Source of the DNA: Spirochaetota bacterium
Lineage (GTDB): Bacteria > Spirochaetota > Spirochaetia > Treponematales > UBA12059
Reading direction: 5' to 3'
Length of the DNA: 34,108 bases
Assembly (NCBI GenBank): GCA_018262985.1
Contig: JADFDI010000016.1
Coordinates: 1-34,108 of the forward strand
Below, in pieces: positions 3,505 to 25,581 of this stretch. Under the pieces are notes generated by a model. It searched no databases, had not been told where the DNA came from, and saw nothing but the letters and a program-made list of their open reading frames with translations. Position 1 is the stretch's first letter. Every line of letters starts with the position of its first letter. Position numbers and translations under genes: made by a program.

Positions 3505-4698
3505 CTAGATGGTCCGGGGCGTGGCGCGGGCGAGGAGGGCTTCGAGCGTGGCCGCCGGGTCCTTCCGCTTGCCGAGCAGGATCATGGCCGCGATGATGTA
3601 CGGCTTCCAGCTCGCCTCGCGGTAGGTGTCGTCGCGGTAGCGGTCGAAGACGCTCGCGGCCACCTCGCCGGCCTTGCACGAGACGCCGGTGATGTCGGCG
3701 GGCAGGCAGTGCATGTAGAGCGCCTTCCCCGCCTTCGTCAGCTTCATCTTCTCCTCGGTGCACTCCCAGTCCTGGAACTTCGCGTTGTTGGCGAGGCAGG
3801 ACTTCTCGAGCTCCTTGAGTCCGGCCTGGTCGCCCGAGTGGAGGAGGGGGACGCGCTGCTGCATCACGTGGAAGGGCGCCCAGCTCTTCGGGTAGACGAT
3901 GTCCGCGTCCTTGAAGGCCTCGTCCATCGACTTGACGTGGCTGAACGTGCCGCCGGACTCCTTCGCCTGCTTCCTCGAGAGCTCCACCACCTCGGGAATC
4001 AAGTCGTAGCCCTCGGGGTGGGCGAGCGTCACGTCCATGCCGAAGCGGGTCGCGAGGCCGATGATGCCCTGCGGCACCGAGAGCGGCTTGCCGTACGAGG
4101 GCGAGTAGGCCCAGGTCATGGCGAGCTTCTTGCCCTTGAGCTTGTCGAGGCCGCCGAAGTGCTTGGCGAGGTGGAGGAGGTCGGCCATCGACTGGGTCGG
4201 GTGGTCGATGTCGGACTGGAGGTTGACGATGGTCGGGCGGTCGGGCAGGACGCCCGCGGCCACGCCGTCGTCGAGACTGCGGCCGACCTCGCGCTGGTAC
4301 TTGTCGCCTTCGCCCAGGTACATGTCGTCGCGGATGCCGATCGCCTCGGTCAGGAAGCTGATCATGTTCGCGGTCTCGCGCACGGTCTCGCCGTGGGCGA
4401 TCTGGCTCTTGCCCTCGTCGAGGTCCTGCACGTACAGGCCGAGGAGGTCGCAGGCGCTCGAGTAGCTGAAGCGCGTGCGCGTGGAATTGTCGCGGAAGTT
4501 CGACACCGCGATGCCGGAGTCCCAGAGCTTCGGGCTGATCCCGGCGTCGCGCATGAGCCGCAGGGCCTCCGCCACGAGGAAGGTGGCCTCGAGCTCGTCG
4601 CGCGACTTCTCCCAGGTCAGGAGGAAGTCCTTGCGGTACATCCCGGTCTTCTTCTGCTTGAGCGCGCCGATCAGCGCCTTCACGTCGTCAGTCTTCAT
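3505..4698 (-). CDS. ygeW: Knotted carbamoyltransferase YgeW
   Basis: A 397-residue protein, almost the same length as E. coli YgeW (396). It matches over its whole length, including NSTRTRFSYSSACDLLGL (carbamoyl-phosphate motif STRTR at 72-76), QDLDEGKSQIAHGETVRETANMIS, MTWAYSPSYGKPLSVPQGI and HCLPADITGVSC (330 on). YgeW is a transcarbamylase that, in the uric-acid pathway of anaerobes, is thought to phosphorolyse a ureido intermediate related to 2,3-diureidopropionate, giving carbamoyl phosphate. The ATG at 4698 is chosen over an upstream frame extension because GGGAGGAAG sits just before it and the protein then aligns with the family start. It is last in the purine gene set, separated from xdhD by a palindromic repeat. 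No carbamate kinase is seen nearby. Confidence 0.95.
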   Translation of the reverse strand: MKTDDVKALIGALKQKKTGMYRKDFLLTWEKSRDELEATFLVAEALRLMRDAGISPKLWDSGIAVSNFRDNSTRTRFSYSSACDLLGLYVQDLDEGKSQIAHGETVRETANMISFLTEAIGIRDDMYLGEGDKYQREVGRSLDDGVAAGVLPDRPTIVNLQSDIDHPTQSMADLLHLAKHFGGLDKLKGKKLAMTWAYSPSYGKPLSVPQGIIGLATRFGMDVTLAHPEGYDLIPEVVELSRKQAKESGGTFSHVKSMDEAFKDADIVYPKSWAPFHVMQQRVPLLHSGDQAGLKELEKSCLANNAKFQDWECTEEKMKLTKAGKALYMHCLPADITGVSCKAGEVAASVFDRYRDDTYREASWKPYIIAAMILLGKRKDPAATLEALLARATPRTI

Positions 4699-4815: not shown

Positions 4816-7683
4816 TCATGAGAGCTTCCCCATGGCGCGGAGTATCCGCTCGGGGGTGAAGGGCCACTCGCGGCACCAGGCGCCGACGGCGTCGTGGATG
4901 GCGATGGCGATGGCGGGCGCGGAGCCGTTGAGCGAGATCTCCGACACGCTCTTCCCGCCGAAGGGCCCCACCTCGTCGGCGACGGGCACGAGCTCCACGT
5001 GGAAGTCCTCGGGCACCTCGTAGATCGAGGGGATCTTGTAGTCGAGGAAGCCGAGGTTGAGCGGCTTGCCCTTCTCGTCGAAGAGCAATTCCTCGTAGAG
5101 CGAGTGGCCGACCGCCTTCATGACGCCGCCGTAGATCTGCCCGAGCGCGAGGGCCGGATTGATGGGCGTGCCGCAGTCCTGGTAGGCGTGGTAGCGGCGC
5201 AGCTTCACCTCGCCGGAGCGGACGTTGACCGCCGCCTCGACGAAGTGCGCGCCGTAGGGGAAGGCCGCGTGCTCGGTCTTGAAGTTGCCGAAGCCCGTGA
5301 GCTCGTGGTGGCCCTCGCCCTGCACGCCCTGGTGGGCGAGCTCGGCGAGCGTCACCTGGCCCTTCTTCCCCTTGACGACGCCGCGGTGGACGAGGACGAG
5401 GTCGGAGACGCTCTCGCCGAGCATGACGGCGGCCGCCTCGAGGCACTTGCGCTTCAGGTCCTCCGCGGCCTTGACCGCGGCGTTGCCCGAGAAGTAGGTG
5501 CCGGAGCTCGCGTAGGCGCCCTTGTCGAAGGGGGTGGTGTCCGTGTCGCCCGAGACCACCGCCACGTCCTCCATGTCGAGGCCCATGATCTCGGCGGCGG
5601 CCTTGGTGGTCACCGTGTCGAGGCCCGTGCCGAGGTCCGCGCCGCCCGAGAGCATGAGGAGGGTCCCGCCCTGCAAGAGGCGGAGCTCCGCGTTGGCGGC
5701 GTCGAGGCCGGGGAGCCCCGAGCCCTGCTGGATGATGACCGCGCCGCGGCCGATCCTCCAGTCGCCGTCCGCGGCGCTCCTCGGCGCGTCCCAGGCGAAG
5801 GCCTTCTTCCCGCGCGCGATCATCTCGCCCAAGCCGCACTCGCCGAGGGTGACGGCCGCGCCGGGGCGGCCCTCGCCGAGCGAGCGCAGGATCTCGATGC
5901 GGCTGCCCGAACGCACGCGGTTCTTCTCGATGAGCTCGAGCTGGTCCATCCCGAGCTCGGCGGCCAGCTCCGCGAGCGCGGTCTGGAGGGCGAAACTGCC
6001 CTTGGGCGCGCCGTAGCCCTGGTAGGCGCCCGCGGGCGCGAGGTTCGTGTAGTAGGACTTCACCTCGAAGCGCGCGTTGTCGCAGAGGAGGAGGGGCAGG
6101 CTCTTCGAGATGGCGTTCATGGGGACGGTCAGGCAGTGCTGGCCGTAGGGGCCCGTGTCCGCGTCCAGCTTCATCAGGATGGCGGTGAGCGTGCCGTCCT
6201 TCTTCGCGCCGAGCTTGACGGTGATCTCCATCAGGTGGCGCGTGCGGCTCGCGGCGAATTCCTGGGCGCGGTCGTAGCGGAAGAACACCGTCCGGCCGGT
6301 CTTCCAGGCCAGGTAGCCGGCCAGGTCCTCGACGACGATGTCCTGCTTGGCGCCGAATCCGCCGCCGACGCGCTCCTTGATGATGCGGACCTTGTGCTCG
6401 GGGAGGCCGACCACGCGCGAGACGATGCGCCTGACGTGCCAGGGAACCTGGGTCGAGGCGTGCAGCACGAGGCGGTCGGCTTCGACCTTGGCGAGCACCA
6501 CGTGGGGCTCCATCGGCGTGCACTGGACGCGGTTGCCCTTGTAGGTTCGCTCGATGACGACGTCCGCCTCGGCGAAGCCCTTGTCCACGTCGCCGATGCC
6601 GTCGGCCACGCTGGCCGCCAGGTTGCGGTGCGGGTCGGCATGCAGGGGGAACTGGTAGACGATGGGGTCGTCGCGGCCGTCGCCCTCGGTGGAGCTGCCC
6701 GCGGGCGGGTCGCCGACCACGTACGAGACCTTGCCGTGGTGGACGACCGGCGCGCCGGGTCTCCGGGCCTCGGCGATGGAGAGCACGGGCGGCAGCACCT
6801 CGTACTCGACCTCGATGGCCGCGAGGGCGGCGCGCGCCTCCTCGAGGCTTTCGGCCAGCACGGCGGCCACGCGGTCGCCGACGTGGCGGACCTTGCGCGG
6901 GAACATGCGCTGGTCGTGGGGGCTCGGCTCGGGGAAGCCCTGGCCCGCGGTGGTGTAGACCTGGTCGGGGCAGTTGTCCTTGGTGACGACGGCGACGACG
7001 CCCGGCAGCTTTTCGGCCTTCGAGACGTCCACCTTCCTCACCCAGGCGTGCGCGTGCGGGCTCTGGAGGATGAGGAGGTGGCAGGCGTCGGACGGCACCT
7101 TGTCCTCGACGAAGGCGCGCTCCCCGCGCGCGAGCGCGGCGGCGTCGACCTTCCCGCGGTCCTTGCCGACGTGGCGGAGCTCCGGCGCGAACTCGGGCGC
7201 CGCGGCCTCCGCGTACGCGGGTTCCTTGAGGCGCTTCGCGGCGATGCGCGCGGCGTTGAAGAACTGCTCGTAGCCCGTGCAACGGCAGAGCGTGCCCGAG
7301 AGGGCGTCGCGCACTTCGTCCCCGGAAGGATCCGGACTGCGCTCGAGGAGCTCGTGGAGGGCGAGGGTCACCGCGGGCGTGCAGTAGCCGCACTGGACGC
7401 AGGCCGCGTCGATCAAGGCCTGCTGCACCCCCGAGAGCTTGCGGTCCTTCGAGTAGAAGTCGACCGTGTAGACCTTCTTCCCTTCGACCTGAACCGCGAG
7501 GATCTGGCAGGAGTTGACCTGCTTCCCGTCGAGGAGCACCGCGCAGAGGCCGCAGGAACCCTCGCCGTCGCAGCCGTTCCGCACCGACACGATGCCCTTG
7601 GCGCGGAGCGCGTCGAGCAAGGTGGTGCCGGGCTCGACGTTCCACGAGGCGGCGCGGCCGTTGAGTTCGAAATTAACCTTCAT
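4816..7683 (-). CDS. xdhD: XdhD-type molybdenum hydroxylase, fused 2Fe-2S and Mo domains
   Basis: 955 residues, as in E. coli XdhD (956). The N-terminal ferredoxin domain has Cys38, 44, 47 and 59. A second 2Fe-2S domain has Cys98, 101, 133 and 135. The rest is the molybdopterin domain with RVGGGFGAKQD, APAGAYQGYGAPKG and C-terminal GGKSVSEISLNGSAP, in which Glu915 is the probable catalytic base. Family members are annotated as selenium-dependent hydroxylases or selenate-reductase subunits and form part of the uric-acid gene cluster. The FAD subunit is the adjacent ygfM. The residues matching the substrate-binding Glu and Arg of true xanthine dehydrogenase are Gln here (AKQ and YQG), so the substrate probably differs from xanthine. 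Its ATG overlaps the ygfM stop by 4 bases. Confidence 0.93.
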   Translation of the reverse strand: MKVNFELNGRAASWNVEPGTTLLDALRAKGIVSVRNGCDGEGSCGLCAVLLDGKQVNSCQILAVQVEGKKVYTVDFYSKDRKLSGVQQALIDAACVQCGYCTPAVTLALHELLERSPDPSGDEVRDALSGTLCRCTGYEQFFNAARIAAKRLKEPAYAEAAAPEFAPELRHVGKDRGKVDAAALARGERAFVEDKVPSDACHLLILQSPHAHAWVRKVDVSKAEKLPGVVAVVTKDNCPDQVYTTAGQGFPEPSPHDQRMFPRKVRHVGDRVAAVLAESLEEARAALAAIEVEYEVLPPVLSIAEARRPGAPVVHHGKVSYVVGDPPAGSSTEGDGRDDPIVYQFPLHADPHRNLAASVADGIGDVDKGFAEADVVIERTYKGNRVQCTPMEPHVVLAKVEADRLVLHASTQVPWHVRRIVSRVVGLPEHKVRIIKERVGGGFGAKQDIVVEDLAGYLAWKTGRTVFFRYDRAQEFAASRTRHLMEITVKLGAKKDGTLTAILMKLDADTGPYGQHCLTVPMNAISKSLPLLLCDNARFEVKSYYTNLAPAGAYQGYGAPKGSFALQTALAELAAELGMDQLELIEKNRVRSGSRIEILRSLGEGRPGAAVTLGECGLGEMIARGKKAFAWDAPRSAADGDWRIGRGAVIIQQGSGLPGLDAANAELRLLQGGTLLMLSGGADLGTGLDTVTTKAAAEIMGLDMEDVAVVSGDTDTTPFDKGAYASSGTYFSGNAAVKAAEDLKRKCLEAAAVMLGESVSDLVLVHRGVVKGKKGQVTLAELAHQGVQGEGHHELTGFGNFKTEHAAFPYGAHFVEAAVNVRSGEVKLRRYHAYQDCGTPINPALALGQIYGGVMKAVGHSLYEELLFDEKGKPLNLGFLDYKIPSIYEVPEDFHVELVPVADEVGPFGGKSVSEISLNGSAPAIAIAIHDAVGAWCREWPFTPERILRAMGKLS

Positions 7684-8501
7684 GAGAGGGCCTCCGCTCC
7701 GGCGAGGGCGTCCGCGAGGATTACGGCGCCGCGTCGCTTCTTGTACGCGGCCGAACCGCGCTGGTCGGAGATCGCGTCGAGCAAGGGCTCCGCGAGCTTT
7801 TCGATCCCGGCCTTGTCCGGCAGGGCCTTGCCTTCGAAGAGGGCTTCCAGCTTCGGCATGCGCCGCGCTCGGGGGCCGAAGCCGCCCATCGCGATCCTGA
7901 GGTCCTTCACGGCGCCGCCCTCGAGGCGGTACGCCGCGCCCACCGTGGCGGTGGCCACGTCGCAGGCGGTGCGGCTCGCGCGGCCCGAGGCCGCGAGCAG
8001 TCCCGCGGGCGCCTCGAAGCTCACGGTGAGCGCGAGGCCATCCTTCCGCTCGAGCCAGGCGGCGAGCGGCGCGGTCTTCGTCGCGGCCTTGCCGTCGGCG
8101 CCGCGGACCGCGTACTCGAGCGTCGCGTCGAGCGCGAGGAGGATCGGGACGAGGCTCGCGCAGGACTTGTCCGCCCCCAGGTTGCCGCCGAGCGTGGCCC
8201 GGTTCCGCGTGTTGCGGTTGGCCATCGAAAGCGCGGATTTCCGCAGGCAGGCGGGCAGGGCGGGCGAGTCGGCGAGGGCCTGGAAGGTCGCGCCCGCGCC
8301 GACGCGCGCGGTCGTTCCCTTCCGCCCGATGTCCGAAGGCACGAGCTCCCCGATGTCGACGGCGCGGCCCAGGTCGCCCTTCGTGCCGTGCTCCTCGCCG
8401 ACGAGGAGCCAGGTGCCCCCCGCCAGCGCGACCGATCCGGGGACGGCGAGCGCGGCCAGCGCCTCGTCGAGGGTTTTCGGTTTCAGGTACTCGTTCACCA
8501 T
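7680..8501 (-). CDS. ygfM: FAD-binding subunit of molybdenum hydroxylase (YgfM)
   Basis: A 273-residue protein of the CO-dehydrogenase/xanthine-dehydrogenase FAD-subunit fold. Landmarks are YLKPKTLDEALAAL at the start, LAGGTWLL (FAD pyrophosphate loop) near 27-33 and NRNTRNRATLGGNLGADKSCASL near 95-115. The C-terminal third is the usual CODH FAD C-terminal domain. It should pass electrons between FAD and the Fe-S clusters of the XdhD protein encoded next. The gene overlaps the upstream deaminase gene by 7 bases and xdhD by 4, so the three are translated as a coupled set. Confidence 0.9.
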   Translation of the reverse strand: MVNEYLKPKTLDEALAALAVPGSVALAGGTWLLVGEEHGTKGDLGRAVDIGELVPSDIGRKGTTARVGAGATFQALADSPALPACLRKSALSMANRNTRNRATLGGNLGADKSCASLVPILLALDATLEYAVRGADGKAATKTAPLAAWLERKDGLALTVSFEAPAGLLAASGRASRTACDVATATVGAAYRLEGGAVKDLRIAMGGFGPRARRMPKLEALFEGKALPDKAGIEKLAEPLLDAISDQRGSAAYKKRRGAVILADALAGAEALS

Positions 8502-9895
8502 TCGGCTTTCACTCCCGCCTTCGAAAGAAGGCGCTTCGCGGCCTTGTTCGCCTCGTCGCGGATCTTTTCCTCGTCGGCGCCGACGAGCTTCCGGTTCCGC
8601 ACGACGAACGCACCGTTCACGACGAGGTGGTCCACGCCGTGGTCGTAGCCCGAGAAGAGCAGGGCCGCCGCGGGGTCCGAGAGGGCGCCCGCGTATTCCA
8701 TCTTCATCACGTCGAAGAGCGCGAGGTCGGCGAGCGCGCCTTCCTCCATCTTCCCCGCCTGGTCGTAGCCCAGGATGCGGGCGCCGCCCTCCGTCGCCAG
8801 TCCCAGCACCTCGCGCGCGTTGATGCCGGCCGAGCCGTAGCGCACCCGCTGGAGGAGTAGGGCCTGGCGCGCCTCGCCGAGCATGTCGGAAGCGTCGTTG
8901 GAGGCCGAGCCGTCCACCGCGAGCCCCACGGGCACGCCGAGGTCGAGCATCTCGCGGACCCGGCAGATGCCGGACCCGAGGCGCATGTTCGACGAGGGGC
9001 AGTGGGCCACGCCGGTCTTCGTCTCCGCGAGGACTTTCAGCTCCTCGTCGTTGAAGTGTATCCCGTGGGCGTACCAGACGTCAGGGCCGACGAAGTCGCA
9101 GTCCTGCATGACGCGCAGGGGGCGGCGGCCGTACATCTCGACGCAGAAGGCGTCCTCGTCGAGGGTTTCCGCCAGGTGGGTGTGGAGCCGCGCGCCGTAC
9201 TTCCGCGCCAGCGCCGCGGCGTCCTTCATGCTTTTCTCGGAGACCGAGAAGGGCGAGCAGGGCGCGAGCGCGAGCTTGCGCATGGCGTCGGGGGCGGCGT
9301 CGTGGTATTTCCGCAGCGCCGCCTCGCTCTCGGCGAGGATCGTGTCCTCGTCCTGCACCACGGAGTCGGGCGGCAGGCCCCCGTCCTTCTTCGAGCGCGA
9401 CATGGAGCCGCGCGTCGGCGCGAAGCGGAGCCCGATCTCGGAGGCCGCCCTGAACTGGAGGCCGGGCAGGTCTTCCTTGAACCCTTGCGGGTAGAGGTAG
9501 TGGTGGTCGGTCGAGAGGGTGCAGCCGGTCTTGGCGAGCTCCGCGAGCGCGAGCATGCTCGACCAGTACACCGCCTCCTCGTCGACGCCTTTCCAGACGT
9601 CATAGAGGTAGACGAGCCACTTGAAGAGCTTGGCGTCCTGCACCGCGGGCACGTTGCGCGTCAGGGTCTGGTAGAAGTGGTGGTGCGTGTTGACGAGGCC
9701 CGGCATCACGACGTGGCGCGAGGCGTCCACGACCTCGCAGGCCGCGGGCGGCACGATGCCCTTCGCGATCCGCTTGATGCGCTTGCCTTCGATGAGGACG
9801 TCCACGCCGGCCAGATCCTCGGACGAGGATCCCGCCGCGCCGCCGGCCCCGGTGCGCGGGCGGACCACCCGGAAGCAGTCCTTGAGCAGGATCAC
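8495..9895 (-). CDS. 8-oxoguanine deaminase / AtzB-like amidohydrolase
   Basis: A 466-residue metal-dependent amidohydrolase. It follows the 8-oxoguanine deaminase (hydroxydechloroatrazine ethylaminohydrolase-like) family throughout: NTHHHFYQTLTR (metal ligands His71, His73), TDHHYLYPQG, FAPTRGSMSRSKKDGGLPPDS, CSPFSVS, HTHLAETLDEDAFC, AHCPSSNMRLGSGI and AVDGSASNDASD (metal Asp). The reaction would be deamination of 8-oxoguanine to urate, or of guanine or a related azaheterocycle, which fits the surrounding urate pathway. The start is GTG at 9895: GGAGG lies 7 bases upstream and the GTGA overlaps the preceding stop. It is distinct from the SsnA gene in the same cluster. The exact substrate is inferred. 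Confidence 0.85.
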   Translation of the reverse strand: MILLKDCFRVVRPRTGAGGAAGSSSEDLAGVDVLIEGKRIKRIAKGIVPPAACEVVDASRHVVMPGLVNTHHHFYQTLTRNVPAVQDAKLFKWLVYLYDVWKGVDEEAVYWSSMLALAELAKTGCTLSTDHHYLYPQGFKEDLPGLQFRAASEIGLRFAPTRGSMSRSKKDGGLPPDSVVQDEDTILAESEAALRKYHDAAPDAMRKLALAPCSPFSVSEKSMKDAAALARKYGARLHTHLAETLDEDAFCVEMYGRRPLRVMQDCDFVGPDVWYAHGIHFNDEELKVLAETKTGVAHCPSSNMRLGSGICRVREMLDLGVPVGLAVDGSASNDASDMLGEARQALLLQRVRYGSAGINAREVLGLATEGGARILGYDQAGKMEEGALADLALFDVMKMEYAGALSDPAAALLFSGYDHGVDHLVVNGAFVVRNRKLVGADEEKIRDEANKAAKRLLSKAGVKAEW

Positions 9896-11352
9896 CCGAG
9901 CACCTCCGCGTTGAATTCCTCGATCATGGCGTCGAGGGCGCCGACCTGGGAGCGGAGGCCGCCCCAGTACTCGCGGTGCCCGTTCCACTGGGCGCGGAGC
10001 TCGTCGACGCCCTTGCCGAGCTGCTCCACCCAGGTGAAGTACTTGAGCTGGTGCACGCGGCGCTTGTCCACCTGCGAGAGCTCGAGCACGTGGTCGACCG
10101 AGAGGCCCATGAGCATGTCGAGGTCGCGGTCGGCCTGGCGCTGGGTGTAGGCGCCGCGCTCGGCGTTCATCTCCGCGAGGCGGCTGCCGTACATGGCCAT
10201 CGAGTCGGTGAACATGGTGAAGACCACCTCGTCCTCGCCGAGCTCGTAGTACTTGGCGAACTTGATGGCGGCGACCAGGTTGCCGACGCCGGAGATGCCG
10301 AGGAGGTCGAGCTTCGCGACGGTCTCGGGGAGCACGCCCGCCTCGACCAGGGTGGCGCGGCCGGCCGCCTCGTTGAAGAGGCGGATCAGGCGCACGGGCA
10401 GCTCGTCGTCGACGCCGACGGCCGCGTCGGTGTCGCGGAGGTTGTGGATCCAGGGGATGTGCTTGTCGCCGATGCCCTCGATGCGGTGGTCGCCGAAGCC
10501 GTTCTCGAGGATGGTCGGGCACTGCAGGGCCTCGGCCACCGCGACGCGCGCGCCGGGGAAGGTCTCGCGCAGGTAGGAGCCCGAGCCCAGGGTGCCGGCC
10601 GAGCCTGATGAGAGCACCGCGCCGCCCACGTGGTCGCCGCTCTTCGCGATCTTCTTGAACACTTCCTCCATGGCCGGCCCGGTGACCGTGTAGTGCCAGA
10701 GGTGGTTCGGCAGCTGGTCGAACTGGTTGAAGATGACGGCGTCGGGCCGGGTGGCCTCGAGCTCGATGCACTTGTCGAAGATCTCCTTGACGTTCGACTC
10801 GCAGCCGGGCGTCGCGATGACTTCCTCCGCCATGGTCTTGAGCCACTCGAAGCGCTCCTTCGACATGCCCGCCGGCAGGATGGCGATGGAGGGGCAGGAG
10901 AGCAGGCGCGATATGTAGGCGCCGCCGCGGCAGTAGTTGCCGGTGGACGGCCACACGGCCTTCTTCGCGGTCGGGTCGAAGCGGCCCGTCACGAGCTCGG
11001 GCAGGAGGCAGGAGAGCGCCGCGCCGACCTTGTGCGCGCCGGTGGGGAACCACTTGCCGACGAGGCCGACGATGCGCGCCTTGGTGCCGGTCAGCTCGCG
11101 GGGCAGCTCGAGGTAGTTGACGCCGCCGAACTTTCCGCCTTTCTCGACGGGCTCGTTGTGCCAGTTGACGCGGAAGAGGTTGCGCGGGTGCACGTCCCAG
11201 AGCCCGATGGTCCCGAGCTCGTCCTTGTACTTCTGAGGGATGAGCGAGGGGTCGCGCATCTGGGCGTAGGTGGGAAGGATTATGCCCTTCTCCCGGCAGC
11301 GCTTGACGTTGAGCGCGCGGGCGGCTTTGTCGGTGGTGCTCAGGTCGATCAT
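9892..11352 (-). CDS. PLP-dependent fold-type II enzyme of unknown specificity
   Basis: A 486-residue protein related to cysteine synthase, tryptophan synthase beta and diaminopropionate lyase by fold. The PLP lysine is Lys108 in WFPTGAHKVGAA, a motif like the GAHK of TrpB. The Ser/Thr-Gly-Asn loop is WPSTGNYCRGGAYISRLL (about 140-157). The phosphate-binding stretch is SSGSAGTLGSGSYLRE. It is usually annotated only as 'PLP-dependent protein, beta subunit'. It does not show the N-terminal pattern of YgeX (diaminopropionate ammonia-lyase), yet it occupies that enzyme's place in the pathway cluster. AAGGAG precedes the ATG by 7 bases. A lyase acting on the amino-acid end product of purine breakdown is inferred, not shown. 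Confidence 0.8.
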   Translation of the reverse strand: MIDLSTTDKAARALNVKRCREKGIILPTYAQMRDPSLIPQKYKDELGTIGLWDVHPRNLFRVNWHNEPVEKGGKFGGVNYLELPRELTGTKARIVGLVGKWFPTGAHKVGAALSCLLPELVTGRFDPTAKKAVWPSTGNYCRGGAYISRLLSCPSIAILPAGMSKERFEWLKTMAEEVIATPGCESNVKEIFDKCIELEATRPDAVIFNQFDQLPNHLWHYTVTGPAMEEVFKKIAKSGDHVGGAVLSSGSAGTLGSGSYLRETFPGARVAVAEALQCPTILENGFGDHRIEGIGDKHIPWIHNLRDTDAAVGVDDELPVRLIRLFNEAAGRATLVEAGVLPETVAKLDLLGISGVGNLVAAIKFAKYYELGEDEVVFTMFTDSMAMYGSRLAEMNAERGAYTQRQADRDLDMLMGLSVDHVLELSQVDKRRVHQLKYFTWVEQLGKGVDELRAQWNGHREYWGGLRSQVGALDAMIEEFNAEVLG

Positions 11353-11385
11353 TTCGGTGCTCCTTGCGTGGTCGGTGCTGAAAGG

Positions 11386-12585
11386 CTAGTCGGCGGAAAG
11401 GCCGACGGCGCGCGCGGCGGTCCGGACGTCCTTGAGGCCCGAGCCCGTGGCGAGCACCACGGGCAGGGCGTCGGACGGCAGGTCCTTCGCGGCGCGGAGG
11501 TACGCGGCCATGGCGGCCGCGCTCGAGGGTTCCATGAAGACGCCCGCCTTCGAGGCGGCGAGGCGCTGCGCGGCGAGGATTTCCGCGTCCGGCGCGGCGA
11601 GGGCCCGGCCCGCGTGGTGCTGCAGCTTTTTCAGGGCGAGGATGCCGGCGCGCGGGGCGTCGACCGCGATCGAGTCGGCCGCCGTGTCCGAGGGGACCGG
11701 TTCCCCGAAACTCCCGTCGCGGAGGGCGCGGAAGATGGCGGACGAGCCCTCCGCCTGGCAGGCCCAGACGGTCGGCACCCGGTCGAGGCGGCCGAGGCGC
11801 ACGAGGTCCTCGAAGCCCTTGTAGACGCCGCAGAGTATCGCGCCGTCGCCCGTGGGCACGAAGACGTGGAGCCGCGCCCCGGCGGCCTTCTTCCCCGCGC
11901 CGAAGGCCTCGGCCAGTTCGAGCTCCTCGAGGAGCTCGAAGGCGACGGTCTTCTTCCCTTCGACGGTGAGCGGGTTGTAGGCGGTGTTGCGCGACATGAC
12001 GCGCGAGGCCCGCACGGGGTCGAGCGAGTATTCGAGGCTCCTCTCGTAGGCGAGGTCGTAGCTGCCGTCGACGGGGACGAGCGTCGCGCCGTACTGCAGC
12101 ACCTGGACGCGCTTGGCGACCGGGGCTTTCGCGGGTACGAAGACCGTCACCTGGAGGCCGGCGGCGGCGCCCATGCAGGACATGGAGCTCGCCGCGTTGC
12201 CGGTGCTCGCGAGCACGATCTCCCCGATGCCTTCGCGCTTCGCGAAGGCCGCCACGAGGGCGCTCGCGCGGTCCTTGAAGGAGCCCGAAGGCTCGGCGCC
12301 GTCGTCCTTGAGGAAGAGCGCGCCCACGCCGAGCTCGGCGGCGAGGCGGGGGGCGGCGCGGAGCGGCGTGTTCCCCGCCGCGATCGGCGGGAACCATTTC
12401 GCCTCGACCGGAAGCGGCACGCGCTCAGCGGGCGCCTCGTCTTCCCACACGGCCTCGAGGATGCCCTCGAGCGGCCGCGCGCTTTTCGTTTTCGGCCCGC
12501 ACTCGGGACAGAGGTAGCGGCCCTTTTCGAGCGGGAAGAGCTTGCCGCAGGACGAGCACGCGTAGACCCATTTCGTCGGATTCAT
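11386..12585 (-). CDS. Threonine-synthase-like PLP enzyme with N-terminal zinc ribbon
   Basis: A 399-residue protein. A zinc ribbon (Cys10, 13, 26, 29) leads into a fold-type II PLP domain with LKDDGAEPSGSFKDRAS (PLP Lys104), LASTGNAASSMS and GDGAILCGVYKGF, followed by PSSAAAMAAYL. This architecture is that of short threonine synthases of the YcxK/ThrC type. Its position in a purine-degradation operon, far from homoserine genes, argues for another role: elimination or replacement on a beta-amino or ureido amino acid. The ATG at 12585 is chosen because the zinc ribbon starts nine residues later. It lies 33 bases before the next PLP gene, so the two may act together. True threonine synthase remains possible. 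Confidence 0.8.
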   Translation of the reverse strand: MNPTKWVYACSSCGKLFPLEKGRYLCPECGPKTKSARPLEGILEAVWEDEAPAERVPLPVEAKWFPPIAAGNTPLRAAPRLAAELGVGALFLKDDGAEPSGSFKDRASALVAAFAKREGIGEIVLASTGNAASSMSCMGAAAGLQVTVFVPAKAPVAKRVQVLQYGATLVPVDGSYDLAYERSLEYSLDPVRASRVMSRNTAYNPLTVEGKKTVAFELLEELELAEAFGAGKKAAGARLHVFVPTGDGAILCGVYKGFEDLVRLGRLDRVPTVWACQAEGSSAIFRALRDGSFGEPVPSDTAADSIAVDAPRAGILALKKLQHHAGRALAAPDAEILAAQRLAASKAGVFMEPSSAAAMAAYLRAAKDLPSDALPVVLATGSGLKDVRTAARAVGLSAD

Positions 12586-12677: not shown

Positions 12678-13892
12678 TTATTTCTTCCCTTCGAGTCCGA
12701 GGGGCAGGGCCGCGTAGAAGGCGGCGCAGATCTCGAGGTCGTCGATCCGGTTGATCTCGTTCGGGGCGTGGGCCTGGTTCTCGTCGCCGGGGCCGAAGCC
12801 GATGGACGGGATGCCGTGCCGGCCCGCCACCGCGACGCCGTTCGTCGAGAAGGTCCACTTGTCCACCGTGGGCGCCTTGCCGAAGAGACGTGAGTGCGCG
12901 GCCACGCCGCCCTGGACGAGGGGGTGCTCCATGGGGAACTTCCAGGTGGGGAAGTAGAGCTCCTGCTTGTAGACCTTGCCGGTGTAGGCGGGCGCGGCGT
13001 ACTCGGGCATGAAGACCTTGTAGTTGTCGACGCCGGCTTCGGCGAGCGCCTTCTCCACCTGGCCGATGGCGAGCCTGTCGTCCTCGCCCCAGGTCAGGCG
13101 CCTGTCGCAGTAGAGCATGGCCTGGTCGGGCACCGCGCACTGGCTCGGGCCGTGGACCTTGATCTGGCTGACCGTGATGGTGCCCTTGCCGAGGAACTTG
13201 TCGTCGTCGGGGAGGAGGCGCTCGTTGAGCTTCTCGATGGCGAGCGCCGCGCGGGCGGCCTTGTACGCGGCGGAGTCGCCGCGCTCGGGCGCCGAGCCGT
13301 GGCAGGACACGCCGCGGATCTCGATCTGGATCTCCATGCGGCCGCGGTGGCCGCGGTAGAGGCGGCAGCTCGTGGGCTCGGTGGAGACGAAGAAGTCGGG
13401 GACGAACTTGTCCTCCTCGATCAGGTGCTTCCAGCAGAGGCCGTCGCAGTCCTCTTCCATGACGGTGAAGGCGAACCAGACCGTGTACTCGCCCGAGTAG
13501 CCCGATTCCTTGAGGATGCGCGCCGCGGCGAGCATCGAGGCCGCGCCGCCGAGCTGGTCGGAGGCGCCGCGTCCCTTCACGAGCCCGCCCTCGATGAGCC
13601 CCGAGTGCGGCGGGGTCTTCCAGGCCGCCGGGTCGCCGACGCCGACGGTGTCGATGTGGGCGTCGAAGACGAGCTTCTTCGGGCCCGTCCCCACGCGGCC
13701 CAGCAGCGAGCCGAGCGCGTCGATCCGGATGTCCTCCATGCCCGCTTCCTCGGCCAGCTTCTTGATGAGCTGGACGCGGGGACCTTCGGTGCCGGAGAAG
13801 CCGGGGACCTTGATCATCTCGGAGAGGGCGCGGGCGGTCCAGTCGCGGTGCTTGGCCGCGGCGGCCTTGATGCTCGAGTAATCCATGTTCAT
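12678..13892 (-). CDS. ygeY: YgeY-family metallohydrolase (M20 peptidase-like)
   Basis: 404 residues, as in E. coli YgeY (403). The M20 di-zinc pattern is present: FDAHIDTVG (His79, Asp81), GRGASDQLGG (Asp112), EEDCDGL (Glu146/Glu147) and STEPT. The dimerisation domain carries GHRGRMEIQIEIRGVSCHGSAPERG, and the C-terminus has the last ligand region (GIPSIGFGPGDENQAHAPNE). The family hydrolyses amide or carbamoyl groups. In the urate pathway it is assigned a ring-opened ureido intermediate, but the exact step is inferred. The ATG at 13892 overlaps the ssnA stop (ATGA) and is preferred over the Met two codons later. Confidence 0.94.
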   Translation of the reverse strand: MNMDYSSIKAAAAKHRDWTARALSEMIKVPGFSGTEGPRVQLIKKLAEEAGMEDIRIDALGSLLGRVGTGPKKLVFDAHIDTVGVGDPAAWKTPPHSGLIEGGLVKGRGASDQLGGAASMLAAARILKESGYSGEYTVWFAFTVMEEDCDGLCWKHLIEEDKFVPDFFVSTEPTSCRLYRGHRGRMEIQIEIRGVSCHGSAPERGDSAAYKAARAALAIEKLNERLLPDDDKFLGKGTITVSQIKVHGPSQCAVPDQAMLYCDRRLTWGEDDRLAIGQVEKALAEAGVDNYKVFMPEYAAPAYTGKVYKQELYFPTWKFPMEHPLVQGGVAAHSRLFGKAPTVDKWTFSTNGVAVAGRHGIPSIGFGPGDENQAHAPNEINRIDDLEICAAFYAALPLGLEGKK

Positions 13893-15232
13893 GCCTTCCT
13901 TTCCATGTCGGTCATTCGTTTCCAGAGCCGGTCGCCCGCCTCGGCGCAGCGGGCCGCGAGGGCCTCGGCGTCGTAGGCGGGAACCTTGTTTTCGATGACG
14001 AAGCGGCCGCCGACCATGACGGACTTCACGTGGCGGCTCGAGAGCCCGAAGGCCAGGTGGCCGGCCAGGTTGTCGGCGCCGAGGGCGGTCGGGGAGGGGT
14101 AGTCCCAGTGCACCAGGTCCGCAGGCGCGCCGGGGACGAGCTCGAGGGCTTCCACGCCGAGCAGGCGGGCGGCGAAGTTCCCCGCGCGGCCGAGGGCCTT
14201 GAGGTAGGCGTCGGGCCAGAGGGGGCCGCCGGCATCCTTGTGCTTGAAGAAGGCGAACTTGAATTCCTCGAGCACGTCGGCGCCCATGCCGTCGGTGCCG
14301 AGCATCCAGTTGCGGAGCGAGGGGAGCGCGGCCTGGTAGCCCACGGCGTTGTTCATGTTGGAGCGCGCGTTGTGCGCGAGCATGGCGCCGCGCGCGTCGA
14401 TCATCGCGATCTCCTCCGGCGAGAGCCAGAGGCCGTGCGCGACGATGGAGTCCTTCGGGAGGCAGCCGTGGCGGTCGAGCCGGACGAGGGGGTCGAGGCG
14501 GCGGCGCGCGCGCGAGTCGACCGCGTCGTACTTGTCCTCGGCGACGTGGACGTGCATGGGGCGGCCGCTGGCTTTGCAGAGGGCGCCGAGCGCGTCGAGG
14601 GTTTCGTCCTCGAGGGTGAAGGGCGCGTGCGCGCCGATCATGGCCGCGAAGAGGGGGGCGCCGCCCGAGAGCAGGCGCGGCATGCGCGCGGTGTCCGCCT
14701 CCTCGGCGAAGCGCTCGTTCTCGCGCACCCCCGCCTTCGCGCCGGCCTCGCCGTTGCGGTCGGTGGTCTCGTAGCAGAGCACCGAGCGGATTCCCACCTC
14801 GCCGATGCCCTCGGCGAGGACCGAGAGCGAGCCGTCGATCCACTCGGGGCTGGCGTGGTGGTCGATGACGGTGGTGACGCCGCAGGCGGCGGCGTCCATG
14901 GCGCCCGCCACGCCGGACCAGCGCGTCGTCGCGTCGTCGAGGGCCCGGTCGAGCCGCCACCAGAGGTGGTCGAGCTGCTGCGCGAAGTCCTTCGACGGCG
15001 CGATGTCCACGCGCAGGCCGCGGGCCAGGGCGGAGTAGAAGTGGGTGTGGCCGAGCACGAGGCCCGGCGAGACGAGGCCGCCCGAGCCGCCCTTCCGGGC
15101 TTCCGGGTGCGCGGCCGCGAGGCCGGGGCCGGCGGCCGCGACGCGGCCGTCGTCGCCCACCAGGAGGTCGATGGGCTCGGAGACGGCCGCGGGGTCCCAG
15201 CGGACCAGGCGGACGCGTTCGAAGACGGTCAT
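13889..15232 (-). CDS. ssnA: Aminohydrolase SsnA
   Basis: 447 residues (E. coli SsnA 442). It matches family blocks along its length: VLGHTHFYSALARG (metal ligands His62, His64), DFAQQLDHLWWRLDRALDD, TTVIDHHASPEWIDGSLSVL, CYETTDRNG, HVHVAEDKYD, AHNARSNMNNAVGY, GTDGMGAD (metal Asp) and FAFFKHKDAGGPLWPD. SsnA is part of the anaerobic urate cluster and is thought to hydrolyse a reduced urate product. The start at 15232 overlaps the ygfK stop (ATGA). A predicted cytoplasmic enzyme with a single metal site. Chemical step assigned by analogy only. Confidence 0.95.
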   Translation of the reverse strand: MTVFERVRLVRWDPAAVSEPIDLLVGDDGRVAAAGPGLAAAHPEARKGGSGGLVSPGLVLGHTHFYSALARGLRVDIAPSKDFAQQLDHLWWRLDRALDDATTRWSGVAGAMDAAACGVTTVIDHHASPEWIDGSLSVLAEGIGEVGIRSVLCYETTDRNGEAGAKAGVRENERFAEEADTARMPRLLSGGAPLFAAMIGAHAPFTLEDETLDALGALCKASGRPMHVHVAEDKYDAVDSRARRRLDPLVRLDRHGCLPKDSIVAHGLWLSPEEIAMIDARGAMLAHNARSNMNNAVGYQAALPSLRNWMLGTDGMGADVLEEFKFAFFKHKDAGGPLWPDAYLKALGRAGNFAARLLGVEALELVPGAPADLVHWDYPSPTALGADNLAGHLAFGLSSRHVKSVMVGGRFVIENKVPAYDAEALAARCAEAGDRLWKRMTDMERKA

Positions 15233-18200
15233 GAGGCGCTCCCTTCGGCCGGCGGGGCCAGCCAGGCGTAATCGCGGAAGATGCGGGCGGCGGCCAGGGC
15301 GAGGCGGTCGTCGGGACCGCGCGCGGAGGCGGCGGAGGCGGCGCTCCCGTGGCCGGCGGAGACGGCGGACTCGAGCACGCCGAGGGCACGGATCTTGCCC
15401 GAGTCGCAGCGCACGACGAACTCGTGCTTGCCGCCGCGGTCCGGCAGCGGCGCGAAGCCGGCGCGGTCCGAGGCCATCAGGGCGGCCTCCGAATCGAAGA
15501 GGTTGAGCTTGTCGCTGAAGGGCGCGCCTTCCCAGGGGCAGAAGGTTTCGCAGTTGCCGCACTCGTTGCAGAGCGCGTGCACGTGGACGATCTGCCAGCC
15601 CAGGCCCGGCCCCAGGTCGAGCGCGAGGTTGGCGCGGTTCGGGCACACCTCGACGCAGCGCATGCAGGCTTCGTCGCAGGCCAGGCAGCGTTCCGCCTCG
15701 CGCGCGAGGAAGCCGGGGTCGGTCTCGGGGAGCGGCTCGAGCAGCTTGCCGCGGGCGGCCAATTTGGCGCGCTCGGGCGTTTTGCGGACGTGCTCGTAAT
15801 CCGGGTCGAGGGCGCCGAGCGCGGCGATGACGGCCTTGGCCGCGCGCCGCCCGTCCGCCACCGCGGCGATGATCGAGGCCGGCCCGCGCCGGGCGTCGCC
15901 CACCACGTAGAGGTCCTCGCCCGCGGCGAGGGTGTCCGCCGCGATTTCCGGGCGGCCGTCCTTGCCGACCTTCACGCCCCAGGCTTCGAGCAGCTCGCGG
16001 TCCGGCGACTCGCCGATGGCGGCCACGAGGAGGCCGCAGCCGAGCTCGAAGGTCTCGTCGGAAGCGACGGGGCTCCGGCGTCCCGAGGCGTCCGCTTCGC
16101 CGAGCTTCATGCGGCGCACGACGAGCGCTCCGGGGCGGGCCGCCTCGGGCAGGGCCAGTTCGACGAAGTCCGCGCCCTCGGCCATGGCCGCCTCGAGTTC
16201 CTCGCGGTCGGCGGGCATCTCGGCCGCGGTGCGGCGGTAGACGATGGTGACCGCGGGCTTGCCGGGCAGGCGGAGGGCGGCGCGAGCGGCGTCCATGGCG
16301 GTATTGCCGCCGCCGGCGACCACGACGCGCCGCTCCGCCCCCGGGTCCGGGGCCGGCGCCTTGCCGAGCGCGGCCAGCTTGAGGAAGGAGAGCGCGTCCA
16401 CGACGCTCACGCCCGAGCCCGCGAGGGGCAGCTCGCGGGCCTTCTCGGCGCCGACGGCCAGCACGACGGGCCCGATGCCCCTGGCGCGGAGATCCGCGAT
16501 GCCCGCGGGTTCCTCGCCGAAGCGGAACTCCACGCCGAGCGCGGCGATGCGCTTCACGTCGCGCTCGATGTCCTCGCGGGCGATGCGGAAGCCGGGTATC
16601 AGGTTGGCGACGGCGCCGCCGGGCGCCTCGTCGCGGTCGTAGACGACGGGCAGGATGCCCGCGGAGGCGAGGGCCTCGGCGCAGGCGAGCCCGCCGGGGC
16701 CGGCGCCGATGACGCCGACGCGGGTGGTCGTGCGGAGCGCTACTTTCTCGCGGGCCGGCTCGTCGAGCCCGGCGCGGGCCGCGGCGCGCGCCACGGCGAG
16801 CTTCGAGGCGCGGATGGCTACCGGTCCCTCGTAGTCGACGCGGGAACAGGCGGTTTGGCAGACGTGGTCGCAGAGCACGCCCGTGATGAAGGGGAGGGCG
16901 TTGCGGTCCTTGACGATGTCGAAGGCCTCCGCCGCGCGGCCCGCGCCGCCGGAGCGGATGTAGCCGGGGGCGTCCTGGTTGGCGGGGCAGGCCTCGACGC
17001 AGGGCGCGACGAAGCAGTCGAAGCGGGGCAGGGCCTTACTGATGCTCGCGCGGCCGCGCTTCCGCTCGCCCGAGTAGTCCGGGTCGGCGAGCGCCGCCTC
17101 CGCGAGGGCGGCGAGGGCCTTCGCGTCGGGACGCGCCGGGGCGGAGGCGAGGGCTCCGGACGCCGCGCGCGCGATCTCGGTCAGGCGCTGGTAGCCGCCC
17201 GGCTTCAGGAGCTCGGTGGCCGTGGTGAGCGGGCCCAGGCCCGCCTGGACGCAGGCGGCCGCGTTGCGCGCCGAGACGCCCGCGCTGAAGCTGAAGGGCG
17301 GCGGGGCGGCCAGGGCGGCGGCGAGCTCCGCGGCCAGGCGCGTCGTTATCGGGAAGAGGGGGCGCCCCGAGAGGTAGGCCTCGCTGCCGGGCAGCGGGGT
17401 GTTCGCGTTCTCGTGGGCCAGGGTGTTGGAAAGCTTGAGCCCGAAGCCGACGCCGGCCTCCCGCGCGGCCGTCCCGAGCGAGGCGACGAGCTCGAGGGCG
17501 CGGCCGAACTGCAGGTCCTTCCCGAAGGCCTCCCGGCTGATGACGATCTTGCCCCAGCGCGCGCGGTCGAGGATGTCTCGCACGCGGTCGTAGCCGAGCA
17601 GGGTGGGGTTGAGCTTGACCGCGAGCGGCAGCTTCTTCACCGAGACCAGGTGCCGGGCGATGGCCTCGATCTCCTCGGGCAGGCAGCCGTGCATGGTGGA
17701 GAGGGCCGCCGAGTGGACGGGGCGCTCCGCGGGGTTCGCGCGCAGGGCCTTGACGGCGGCGACGGCGCGCGCGGCGGCTTCGGCGCCGAAGGCGAAGGCG
17801 AAGGCGGGCGCGGAGACTTCGCGCTCCGCGTCCTCGAGCTCGCGCTCCCACTCCGGGTCGAGCTCGGGGCGCCGGAGCTTCTCGATGAAGCCGTCCACCC
17901 GCTCGCCCCTGACGCCCGCGAGCGTGTAGCCGACGGACAGCACGAAGGCGGTCGGGTCCGGTTTGTCGACAGGCGCGCGCAGGGCCTCGAGCACGCGGAT
18001 CGCGAGCCAGGCGCGGCGGTACTCGCCGCGGGCCTCGTCGAGCGAAAGCTCGGTGGACCACTCGGTGTTGCGCCCCTCGTCGAGGGCGTCGATGCAGGGC
18101 TTCTCGATCTCGAGCCGATCCATTTCCTGCACCGTCTTGAGCTCGACGACGCGGGCGCCCGCGAGCCAGGAGGCCACGATGTTCGGGGCTATCTGGCTGT

Positions 18201-18396
18201 GCGGTCCGGCGGCCGGTCCGACCGGCAGCGAGACGCGGGTCCCGAAGAAGTCGAAGCCCGGGCTCGTCCGCGCGAGCGCGTCCGCGTCGCGGATGGTCTC
18301 CTCCGGGATGCCGTAGATCGAGCGGACGGACCGCCACTCGCCGGCCATGCGGGAGAGCAGTTCGCTGATGGAAGTCGTGCGCATCACGGCGCTCAT
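15229..18396 (-). CDS. ygfK: YgfK-type iron-sulfur flavoprotein oxidoreductase
   Basis: 1055 residues (E. coli YgfK 1032). Residues 1-450 form a dihydropyrimidine-dehydrogenase-like barrel. A Cys-rich linker follows (Cys461, 466, 470 and 509, 513, 517). A GltD-like FAD/NAD(P)H module comes next with GVIGAGPGGLACAEAL (561 on) and VVVAGGGNTAMDAA (691 on). The C-terminus carries ferredoxin-type 4Fe-4S motifs (Cys904, 907, 911, 914, 918 and Cys943, 946, 949, 953). The family is annotated as a putative selenate-reductase subunit, but in urate-degrading anaerobes it is proposed to reduce urate or a urate derivative with NAD(P)H. The large electron-transfer chain fits an oxygen-sensitive reductase. 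ATG at 18396 overlaps the preceding stop (ATGA). Confidence 0.95.
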   Translation of the reverse strand: MSAVMRTTSISELLSRMAGEWRSVRSIYGIPEETIRDADALARTSPGFDFFGTRVSLPVGPAAGPHSQIAPNIVASWLAGARVVELKTVQEMDRLEIEKPCIDALDEGRNTEWSTELSLDEARGEYRRAWLAIRVLEALRAPVDKPDPTAFVLSVGYTLAGVRGERVDGFIEKLRRPELDPEWERELEDAEREVSAPAFAFAFGAEAAARAVAAVKALRANPAERPVHSAALSTMHGCLPEEIEAIARHLVSVKKLPLAVKLNPTLLGYDRVRDILDRARWGKIVISREAFGKDLQFGRALELVASLGTAAREAGVGFGLKLSNTLAHENANTPLPGSEAYLSGRPLFPITTRLAAELAAALAAPPPFSFSAGVSARNAAACVQAGLGPLTTATELLKPGGYQRLTEIARAASGALASAPARPDAKALAALAEAALADPDYSGERKRGRASISKALPRFDCFVAPCVEACPANQDAPGYIRSGGAGRAAEAFDIVKDRNALPFITGVLCDHVCQTACSRVDYEGPVAIRASKLAVARAAARAGLDEPAREKVALRTTTRVGVIGAGPGGLACAEALASAGILPVVYDRDEAPGGAVANLIPGFRIAREDIERDVKRIAALGVEFRFGEEPAGIADLRARGIGPVVLAVGAEKARELPLAGSGVSVVDALSFLKLAALGKAPAPDPGAERRVVVAGGGNTAMDAARAALRLPGKPAVTIVYRRTAAEMPADREELEAAMAEGADFVELALPEAARPGALVVRRMKLGEADASGRRSPVASDETFELGCGLLVAAIGESPDRELLEAWGVKVGKDGRPEIAADTLAAGEDLYVVGDARRGPASIIAAVADGRRAAKAVIAALGALDPDYEHVRKTPERAKLAARGKLLEPLPETDPGFLAREAERCLACDEACMRCVEVCPNRANLALDLGPGLGWQIVHVHALCNECGNCETFCPWEGAPFSDKLNLFDSEAALMASDRAGFAPLPDRGGKHEFVVRCDSGKIRALGVLESAVSAGHGSAASAASARGPDDRLALAAARIFRDYAWLAPPAEGSAS

Positions 18397-19820
18397 GGGC
18401 ACCCCCGGGAAAGGAATCGGCCGAAGCCGGGTTCGAGCGCGACGCCGGGCGCCGCTTCGGATATGGAGCCTTCGCGGGGCAGGGCCCCGGGCCTCTCCTC
18501 GTCGCGCGCCGCGTCGTAGGCGAGGCGGCCGCGAAGGTAGACGGAACGTATGGAACCCTGGAGCCCGAGACCGTCGAAGGGCGTGTCGCGGCCCTTCGAG
18601 TAGAGCCTCTCGGCGCGCATCGTCGTCCTTCCCTTGGGATCGAAGAGGACCAGGTCGGCGTCCTTGCCGAGCGCGATGGCGCCCTTGCGGGCGGAGAGGC
18701 CGAAGCGGGCCGCCTGCGCGGCGCCCGAGGCCTCGAGGAGGCGGGGCAGGCTTAGCTTCCCCTTCAGCCAGCCTTCCGAAAGCAGGTAGGGAAGGGTGGT
18801 GCCGACGCCGGGGATGCCGCCGTAGGCGCTCCACGCGTCGCGGCCGCGCTTTTCCTCGGGACGGGCGGGCGCGTGGTCGCTCGTCGCGAAGGAGACCGCG
18901 CCCGAGGCGAGCAGCGTCCAGAGCCGTTCGCGCTCCGCGGCCGACTTGACCGGCGGCGCCGTCTTGAGCGAGGCGCCCTTCGCCGCGAAGTCCTCGCGCG
19001 AGAAGGCGAGGTAGTGCGCGCAGGTCTCGCACGTGCCGCCTGAACGCGAGACGAGTTCCGCCGCCGCCGCGGTGCCGACGTGGACGACGTGCAGGGTGCC
19101 TTCGCGGCCGCGCGCGAGCGCCATGAGGGCGGCGCAGGCGACGAGCTCGGCGGCCTCGGGCCGCGAGTCGACGTAGTCGTCCCAGGTCGGCGCTCCGGAG
19201 CCCCGCGCGGCCTTGATCCTCGCGGCGGCGGGCAGCACGTAGGCGGGGTCCTCGGCGTGCACCAGCACCGGGAGCCCGAGCTCCGCGGCCTTGGCGATCA
19301 TGCGCGAAAGCTGCTCGTGGTCGACCGCGGGGAAGGTGTCCATGCCGGACGCGAGGTAGGCCTTGAAGCCCGCGACGCCGGCCGCGGCCAGCTCCTCGAG
19401 GTCCCGCTCGGCGGTGGCGGGGCCGTCCGGGCCCGCCCCGCGGATGCCGCCGTAGAAGGCGTAGTCGCAAAGGGCCTCGGGCGCGACGGCCGCCAGCTTG
19501 TTCCGGAGGGCGGCCGCGTTGACGACCGGCGGCAGGCTCGTGCAGGGCATGTCGATTATGGTGGTGACGCCGCCGCGCAGGGCCTCGGCCGAGCCGCGGA
19601 GGAAGCTCTCGCGCTCCGTGAAGCCGGGCGTGTCGAAGTGGACGTGGCTGTCGACGGCGCCCGGCAGGACGAGGAGGCCCGACGCGTCGACCGTCTCCTC
19701 GCCGGCTTCCGGCTCGAGGCGCTCGGCGATTTCCGAAACGCGTCCTTCGCGGACGCGGATGTCGACGCGGAGCGGGGCCGACGCCCCGGGGAGCGCCGCT
19801 TCCCCGTTCCATACCAGCAT
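18393..19820 (-). CDS. Allantoinase-like cyclic amidohydrolase (HyuA position)
   Basis: A 475-residue amidohydrolase with the di-metal pattern of allantoinases and dihydropyrimidinases: DSHVHFDTPGFTERESF (His59, His61), AGVAGFKAYLASGMDTF (carbamylated Lys153), LVHAEDP (His188), HVVHVG (His247) and TSDHAP (Asp315). The blocks DYAFYGGIRGAG, DDYVDSRPEAAEL and AYGGIPGVGTTLPYLLSEGW resemble allantoinase more than the hydantoinase HyuA found here in E. coli. The reaction should be hydrolytic opening of a five- or six-membered cyclic ureide made by YgfK/SsnA. Its start overlaps the xdhB stop by one base and its stop overlaps ygfK by four. Whether the substrate is allantoin itself is unknown. Confidence 0.87.
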   Translation of the reverse strand: MLVWNGEAALPGASAPLRVDIRVREGRVSEIAERLEPEAGEETVDASGLLVLPGAVDSHVHFDTPGFTERESFLRGSAEALRGGVTTIIDMPCTSLPPVVNAAALRNKLAAVAPEALCDYAFYGGIRGAGPDGPATAERDLEELAAAGVAGFKAYLASGMDTFPAVDHEQLSRMIAKAAELGLPVLVHAEDPAYVLPAAARIKAARGSGAPTWDDYVDSRPEAAELVACAALMALARGREGTLHVVHVGTAAAAELVSRSGGTCETCAHYLAFSREDFAAKGASLKTAPPVKSAAERERLWTLLASGAVSFATSDHAPARPEEKRGRDAWSAYGGIPGVGTTLPYLLSEGWLKGKLSLPRLLEASGAAQAARFGLSARKGAIALGKDADLVLFDPKGRTTMRAERLYSKGRDTPFDGLGLQGSIRSVYLRGRLAYDAARDEERPGALPREGSISEAAPGVALEPGFGRFLSRGCP

Positions 19821-25457: not shown

Positions 25458-25538
25458 CGCGAAACTCGCCGGGTCGCGCGGGGCCGCCCGGCGCTGGATG
25501 CCTCCGCCCTGCCGGAACCGCCACCGGGACCCCGCGCC

Positions 25539-25554
25539 CCGCCACCGGTGGCGG
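25539..25554. promoter_or_regulatory. Perfect 16-bp palindrome A in the ade-permease control region
   Basis: CCGCCACCGGTGGCGG is identical to its reverse complement. It lies between the two divergent promoters, about 28 bases upstream of the permease -35 box. A dimeric repressor or activator site is the likely meaning; the regulator is not encoded in this window. Confidence 0.55.
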
Positions 25555-25563
25555 AATCGCCGC

Positions 25564-25579: not shown

Positions 25580-25581
25580 CG

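Follow-up and report, generated by a model that had tools for sequence, protein, structure and literature searches.

A urate operon with two PLP enzymes in place of YgeX

The anaerobic pathway of urate breakdown was elucidated as recently as 2025; it bears on gout and on purine balance in the gut. As found in E. coli and C. difficile, the reductive uric acid pathway includes XdhD, YgfK, SsnA, Hyd, YgeW and YgeY. In the published account, YgeW and YgeY together yield 2,3-diaminopropionate (DAP), which the last enzyme, the 2,3-diaminopropionate ammonia-lyase YgeX, reported to be equally active on L- and D-DAP, converts to pyruvate and ammonia (PMC12507026). The stereochemistry of the pathway intermediates is open, with R proposed (PMC12990295). 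Published variants of the pathway (UacX, UacY and an F420 enzyme of Chloroflexota) concern other steps, the reductases and YgeW; in the accessible parts of those reports, none replaces YgeX. Here we analyze a 34,108-nt contig from a spirochaete of the order Treponematales (JADFDI010000016.1, assembly GCA_018262985.1; hereafter, the window). Its single long purine operon (25396 to 3505, minus strand) encodes the proteins named above, SsnA as an SsnA-like protein, but carries, in place of YgeX, two neighboring pyridoxal phosphate (PLP) enzymes. No such pair in urate clusters is described in the openly readable main texts, a set that does not cover the C. sporogenes study.

The first enzyme, ThrCl, is a zinc-ribbon threonine-synthase-like protein of 399 residues (11386..12585, minus strand), assigned from its translation, NCBIfam and a tree. 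The second, PLP486, is a 486-residue enzyme of PLP fold-type II (9892..11352, minus strand), assigned from its translation, an NCBIfam scan and a structure model. The two genes are separated by 33 nt, each with a plausible ribosome-binding site upstream, and together they sit between the genes for YgeY and an 8-oxoguanine deaminase. ThrCl has its zinc-ribbon cysteines at Cys10/13/26/29 and its Schiff-base Lys104 within SGSFKDRAS (codon 12274..12276, minus strand; invariant in 36/36 relatives). In PLP486, the Schiff-base lysine is Lys108, within PTGAHKVGAA (codon 11029..11031, minus strand).

A preliminary description of this DNA reported ygeW, ygeY, ygfK, ssnA and xdhD in the operon and no protein with the YgeX pattern. 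In family scans, YgeW, YgeY and YgfK exceed their NCBIfam cut-offs, the SsnA-like protein falls just below its own (432.5 bits against 444), and XdhD-like subunits are recognised too. The absence of YgeX extends to the whole genome (3.44 Mb, 99.8% complete), where the YgeX model, TIGR03528, has no match at E≤0.001; with a curated cut-off of 532.25 bits, it is not among the NCBIfam matches of ThrCl or PLP486 either. Five PALP-fold proteins are encoded in the genome, namely the pair, a CysK of 307 residues, a TrpB of 389 residues and a separate ThrC of 456 residues, of the type without a zinc ribbon. With separate CysK, TrpB and ThrC genes available, the cell does not depend on the pair to make cysteine, tryptophan or threonine, and the pair is not housekeeping; and since all PALP-fold genes are listed here, no other unassigned enzyme of this fold could fill the place of YgeX.

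Like the pair, YgeX is a fold-type II PLP enzyme of the PALP fold, encoded in the same genomic place with YgeY, YgeW, SsnA and YgfK, and presumably acting on the same substrate. Unlike the pair, it is one enzyme of about 400 residues rather than two (399 and 486), and its model matches neither of them. We conclude that the pair probably replaces YgeX at the DAP step, as a two-component system not orthologous to it. The genomic support for this is strong; as the upstream genes are all kept and only YgeX is exchanged, the simplest reading is that DAP would be the pair's substrate.

Distribution of the pair and of YgeX

The preliminary description proposed that the operon represents a variant end of the pathway, and a survey across genomes supports this, in that the pair and YgeX seldom occur together in genomes that have YgeW. 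Gene presence in the surveyed loci was taken from tblastn, because the open reading frames called in high-GC loci included some antisense artefacts. Among 119 genomes of the window's order, YgeW and PLP486 each occur in 51: both are present in 43, only one of them in 8 genomes each way, and neither in 60. YgeX was found in 8 genomes of the order, all YgeW-positive, 4 with PLP486 and 4 without. Four YgeW-positive genomes had neither by these searches (G007, G056, G092 and G098), and one of these, G056, has a fragment of PLP486 at the edge of a contig.

Clostridia were sampled evenly, giving 393 genomes, 21 of them YgeW-positive. Of these 21, 16 have YgeX only and 5 have PLP486 only, with none having both or neither (Fisher 5e-5, or 2e-4 without G138, the PLP486-only genome on which the sample was centered; relatedness is not corrected for in either value). 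Clostridia of the PLP486 type have the pair clustered with YgeY and usually also with YgfK, Hyd and YgeW, and no ThrCl was found in the YgeX-type Clostridial clusters. A profile of the pair-type ThrCl scores these proteins at ≥495 bits, a group that includes the profile's own rows, and other ThrC-like proteins at ≤317 bits. By this measure, pair-type ThrCl occurs in 0 of 20 YgeX-only genomes tested, and it is encoded elsewhere in the genome in 8 of the 13 genomes that have none near PLP486. Collectively, the pair and YgeX tend to be near-exclusive in YgeW-positive genomes.

The pair is also physically linked to ygeW-type clusters, a co-occurrence that the preliminary description had marked for checking. 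We compared gene order in 20 further loci of the window's order, from several families, and most of those with enough flank keep the whole or a large part of the arrangement XdhB-Hyd-YgfK-SsnA-YgeY-ThrCl-PLP486-8-oxoguanine deaminase-YgfM-XdhD-YgeW. Of 104 loci, 50 have ThrCl within 300 bp of PLP486, 23 have it at another place in the locus, and 18 others end at a contig edge. Searched against named genomes, a PLP486 profile found at least 587 relatives, and the best 80 of these come from Clostridia, Halanaerobiales, Desulfosporosinus, Synergistota, Chloroflexota, KSB1 and spirochaetes. SsnA exceeds its cut-off in 40 of 45 PLP486-positive named genomes from several phyla. The pair is a conserved and widespread module of urate clusters.

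Individual loci show further detail. In L044, the order is PLP486-ThrCl-YgeX-YgeY in a row. Compared with a locus of the same genus (L037, 9118-10575), PLP486 of the window is 78% identical, as is YgfM, and most neighboring genes are 92-97% identical; the two PLP486 copies fall in different well-supported clades, as if replaced in place. A conserved, unnamed regulator-like protein of about 220 residues, with no NCBIfam match at 1e-10, accompanies Clostridial urate clusters at L118:9300-10001 and in 18 other loci.

Structure and relatives of PLP486

The structure model of PLP486 (predicted local distance difference test score, pLDDT, 88.8; predicted template modeling score, pTM, 0.91) has a core like cysteine synthase and cystathionine beta-synthase (CBS), with Z about 31-35, surrounded by extra N- and C-terminal helices that cysteine synthase A and CBS lack. 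The preliminary description was right about the coordinates of the pair, Lys104, the zinc ribbon, Lys108 and the GAHK string, and wrong in reading that string as TrpB-like: TrpB is not among the best 50 VIA rows, and the best matches are CysK and CBS. PLP486 nevertheless scores far below the CysK and CBS cut-offs (78.7 against 350.95 bits and 53.7 against 510.25 bits). It is conserved more strongly than ThrCl, and both Lys108 and Asp296 (codon 10465..10467, minus strand) are invariant in 33/33 relatives.

Asp296 connects PLP486 to Fn1055 of Fusobacterium nucleatum, which converts cysteine and water to H2S and serine (PMC9865163). In a HMMER alignment, Asp296 occupies the column of Fn1055 Asp232, within GISDEF in the wild type and GISNEF in the D232N entry, whose crystal holds the aminoacrylate intermediate according to its PDB title. 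Ordinary cysteine synthases read GIGAGF or GLGAGF here, and aligned enzymes other than Fn1055 have Ala or Tyr in this column. Fn1055 (PDB 5b53, 5b55, 5z5c) shares the CysK/CBS core with PLP486 at about 24% identity over 314 residues, but it has 340 residues rather than 486, acts on cysteine with sulfur as the leaving group, and has no urate context.

In some Synergistaceae, PLP486 has additional neighbors. L112 (2925-8783) is an operon of ThrCl, GlyA (serine hydroxymethyltransferase), PLP486 and Fhs (formate-tetrahydrofolate ligase) with a putative FolD-like gene, and L081 (7478-11461) has ThrCl-GlyA-PLP486. In Pyramidobacter (L119), an Fhs-like gene follows PLP486. Relatives with 41-45% identity are found on plasmids of Bosea and Rhizobium (L170, L171), which are plant-associated aerobic bacteria. 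These adjoin TauE/SafE exporters, M20 hydrolases and amino-acid or TRAP transporters, and in Bosea also a RidA protein, as would be expected beside a beta-eliminating enzyme that makes aminoacrylate. They lie in amino-acid catabolic clusters, possibly with a sulfur amino acid as the substrate. These distant relatives are the only plasmid homologues found; they inform the chemistry and not the link to urate.

ThrCl is set apart from threonine synthases

ThrCl resembles threonine synthases of the zinc-ribbon/PRK08197 type and solved ThrC (2d1f, 1uim, 2zsj and 6cgq) in fold, with Z 36-37 (41 for 2c2b), in its lysine and STGN loop, and in its GLKD motif. Its model has the ThrC fold at moderate confidence (pLDDT 77.6). 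It differs in having a GDG loop where the solved enzymes have VGNAGN, and it belongs to a separate clade: the 36 pair ThrCl proteins group together with support of 95/99, apart from 13 other ThrC-like proteins in a small comparison set, and YgeX falls far outside them. All five solved threonine synthases have the Arg of NPxR(I/L)EGQKT, which we take to bind the phosphate of O-phosphohomoserine. All 36 pair ThrCl proteins have Leu or Thr in its place, and all 36 have EGKKT where the solved enzymes have EGQKT. The window ThrCl falls below the equivalog cut-offs of PRK08197 (172.9 against 303 bits) and TIGR00260 (124.2 against 167.1 bits), and one pair-type ThrCl of a Clostridial genome (L062) passes the latter with 221 bits. 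Relatives of ThrCl include serine dehydratases and serine racemases. The D-specific Asp of YgeX presumably lies in TDGN; ThrCl and PLP486 both have STGN there, which gives no support either way.

Proposed chemistry and alternatives

The CysK/CBS fold of PLP486 predicts elimination of the beta-amino group by way of an aminoacrylate, and the position of Asp296 on Asp232 of Fn1055 suggests the addition of water, giving serine. We propose that PLP486 would form an aldimine with DAP on Lys108 and expel the beta-amino group as ammonia, leaving bound 2-aminoacrylate; Asp296 would then activate water, whose addition to the 2-aminoacrylate would yield serine. The reaction would match that of Fn1055, a cysteine (hydroxyl) lyase, except that the leaving group is nitrogen and not sulfur. 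ThrCl might then deaminate serine to pyruvate, supply PLP486 with the right DAP enantiomer, or racemise; where GlyA and Fhs adjoin, serine might instead yield glycine, formate and ATP. DAP as the substrate, the addition of water and this division of labor are all predicted from sequence and gene context. The serine route specifically, drawn by analogy with Fn1055, is tentative. No less tentatively, PLP486 could be the founding member of an enzyme class, 2,3-diaminopropionate (hydroxyl) lyase, with urate ending in serine and not straight in pyruvate. The preliminary description had also suggested carbamoylated DAP as a substrate. This idea is unsupported, since the cluster retains YgeY, the enzyme that takes off the final ureido group.

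Several observations weigh against replacement of YgeX by the pair. The pair and YgeX are not strict alternatives, because several genomes have both: YgeX also occurs in 13 of the 45 PLP486-positive named genomes, and the two are found together in 4 YgeW-positive genomes of the window's order. In an Oscillospiraceae metagenome-assembled genome (L047, 9968-13000), PLP486 is directly followed by YgeX, in the usual place of ThrCl, and the genome has no pair-type ThrCl. Five of the 45 genomes have no detected SsnA (several are small metagenome-assembled genomes), and some PLP486-positive genomes have only a distant YgeW. The Clostridial counts are not phylogenetically independent, and their sample was centered on one of the positive genomes. 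As to the chemistry, the ThrCl model is of moderate quality, the serine step is supported by a single aligned residue and by gene neighbors in one bacterial group, and both the pair's activity on DAP and the role of ThrCl are predictions from genomics.

The alternative that survives best is a division by stereochemistry, in which PLP486 and ThrCl would each be a lyase for one DAP enantiomer, or ThrCl would be a DAP racemase, with pyruvate as the end product. We consider it rather unlikely and still a serious rival, since YgeX is reported to handle both enantiomers (PMC12507026) and R intermediates are proposed (PMC12990295). The serine dehydratases and racemases among the relatives of ThrCl are also consistent with it, as is the catalytic lysine kept in every relative of both proteins. 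It leaves unexplained, however, the invariant Asp296, which is of a water-activating type, and the presence of GlyA and Fhs beside the pair.

It is doubtful that ThrCl alone is the equivalent of YgeX, with PLP486 acting on another beta-substituted alanine from purines or on a carbamoylated intermediate. This would fit the L047 locus, where YgeX stands in for ThrCl beside PLP486, and the closer relation of ThrCl to deaminating enzymes. Yet PLP486 is missing from 16/16 YgeX-only YgeW-positive Clostridia, the two genes are usually adjacent, and conservation is stronger in PLP486 than in ThrCl. We find it equally improbable that the pair, as part of the same purine regulon, works on a different metabolite, DAP being consumed by a third enzyme or excreted. 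Near-exclusion with YgeX, the frequent presence of SsnA in pair genomes (40/45) and the lack of another unassigned PALP-fold protein in the genome all argue against this, even though some PLP486/ThrCl loci lie away from YgeW and YgeY (L048, L049) and some genomes have both the pair and YgeX. Finally, an ordinary threonine synthase and an ordinary cysteine or cystathionine synthase brought into the operon by chance, which the preliminary description had itself raised, would account for the superfamily membership, the generic annotation and the one Clostridial ThrCl above the TIGR00260 cut-off, but are ruled out for practical purposes by the genome's own ThrC, CysK and TrpB, the window proteins' scores under every equivalog cut-off, the separate ThrCl clade with its replaced Arg and its EGKKT, and the link to urate genes across phyla.

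Replacement of YgeX by the pair would mean that anaerobic urate breakdown can probably end in a second way that has gone unrecognised, and it raises the question of whether the end product of urate is pyruvate or serine. The pair would be a variant of a known pathway built from two uncharacterised enzyme families, possibly including a new enzyme class, and two large misannotated protein families (at least 587 loci in one scan) would gain a likely function. YgeX is one of the pathway's marker genes, so a survey that demands it overlooks a large set of bacteria that probably degrade urate, including many Oscillospiraceae of animal guts and, in the window's order, the majority of the YgeW-positive members.

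Other genes of the window

The rest of the operon also lies on the minus strand. Upstream of the pair are a YgeY-family M20 hydrolase (12678..13889; NCBIfam 473.9 bits, cut-off 321), an SsnA-like aminohydrolase (13889..15235) and the purine-ring reductase YgfK (15229..18348, start codon approximate; 929 bits, cut-off 835.3). The SsnA-like protein also misses a second cut-off (425.6 against 455.5 bits), and SsnA is its best family match by far. Next come a cyclic amidohydrolase in the HyuA position, allantoinase/hydantoinase-like (18393..19820; allantoinase 358.4 bits, cut-off 357.85), and, by family scan, a xanthine-dehydrogenase-type molybdenum subunit (19820..22138) with its partner, a [2Fe-2S]/FAD subunit (22138..23601). 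A putative adenine deaminase-like gene (23675..25396) forms the upstream end, and a putative NCS2/AzgA-type purine permease (25498..27000, plus strand) is divergent from it; both are named from their translations.

Directly downstream of the pair is the 8-oxoguanine deaminase-like amidohydrolase (8495..9877; 597.6 bits, cut-off 532). Almost every locus of the order has this gene after the pair, which suggests that 8-oxoguanine is also fed into the urate pathway. It is followed by a YgfM-like FAD subunit (7680..8501), assigned by its position beside XdhD and kept in loci of the same order, and an XdhD-like molybdenum subunit with a [2Fe-2S] domain (4816..7683; family scan), so that the operon encodes two xanthine-dehydrogenase-type enzymes. 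The last gene encodes the YgeW knotted carbamoyltransferase (3505..4698; 688.9 bits, cut-off 453), which is expected to release carbamoyl phosphate. No carbamate kinase gene is apparent in the window, unlike in many Clostridial clusters, where one lies beside YgeW. No RNA families were found in the window. At its left end, an open reading frame (96-440, minus strand) appears to resemble TnpB (Orf2) of the IS66 family.

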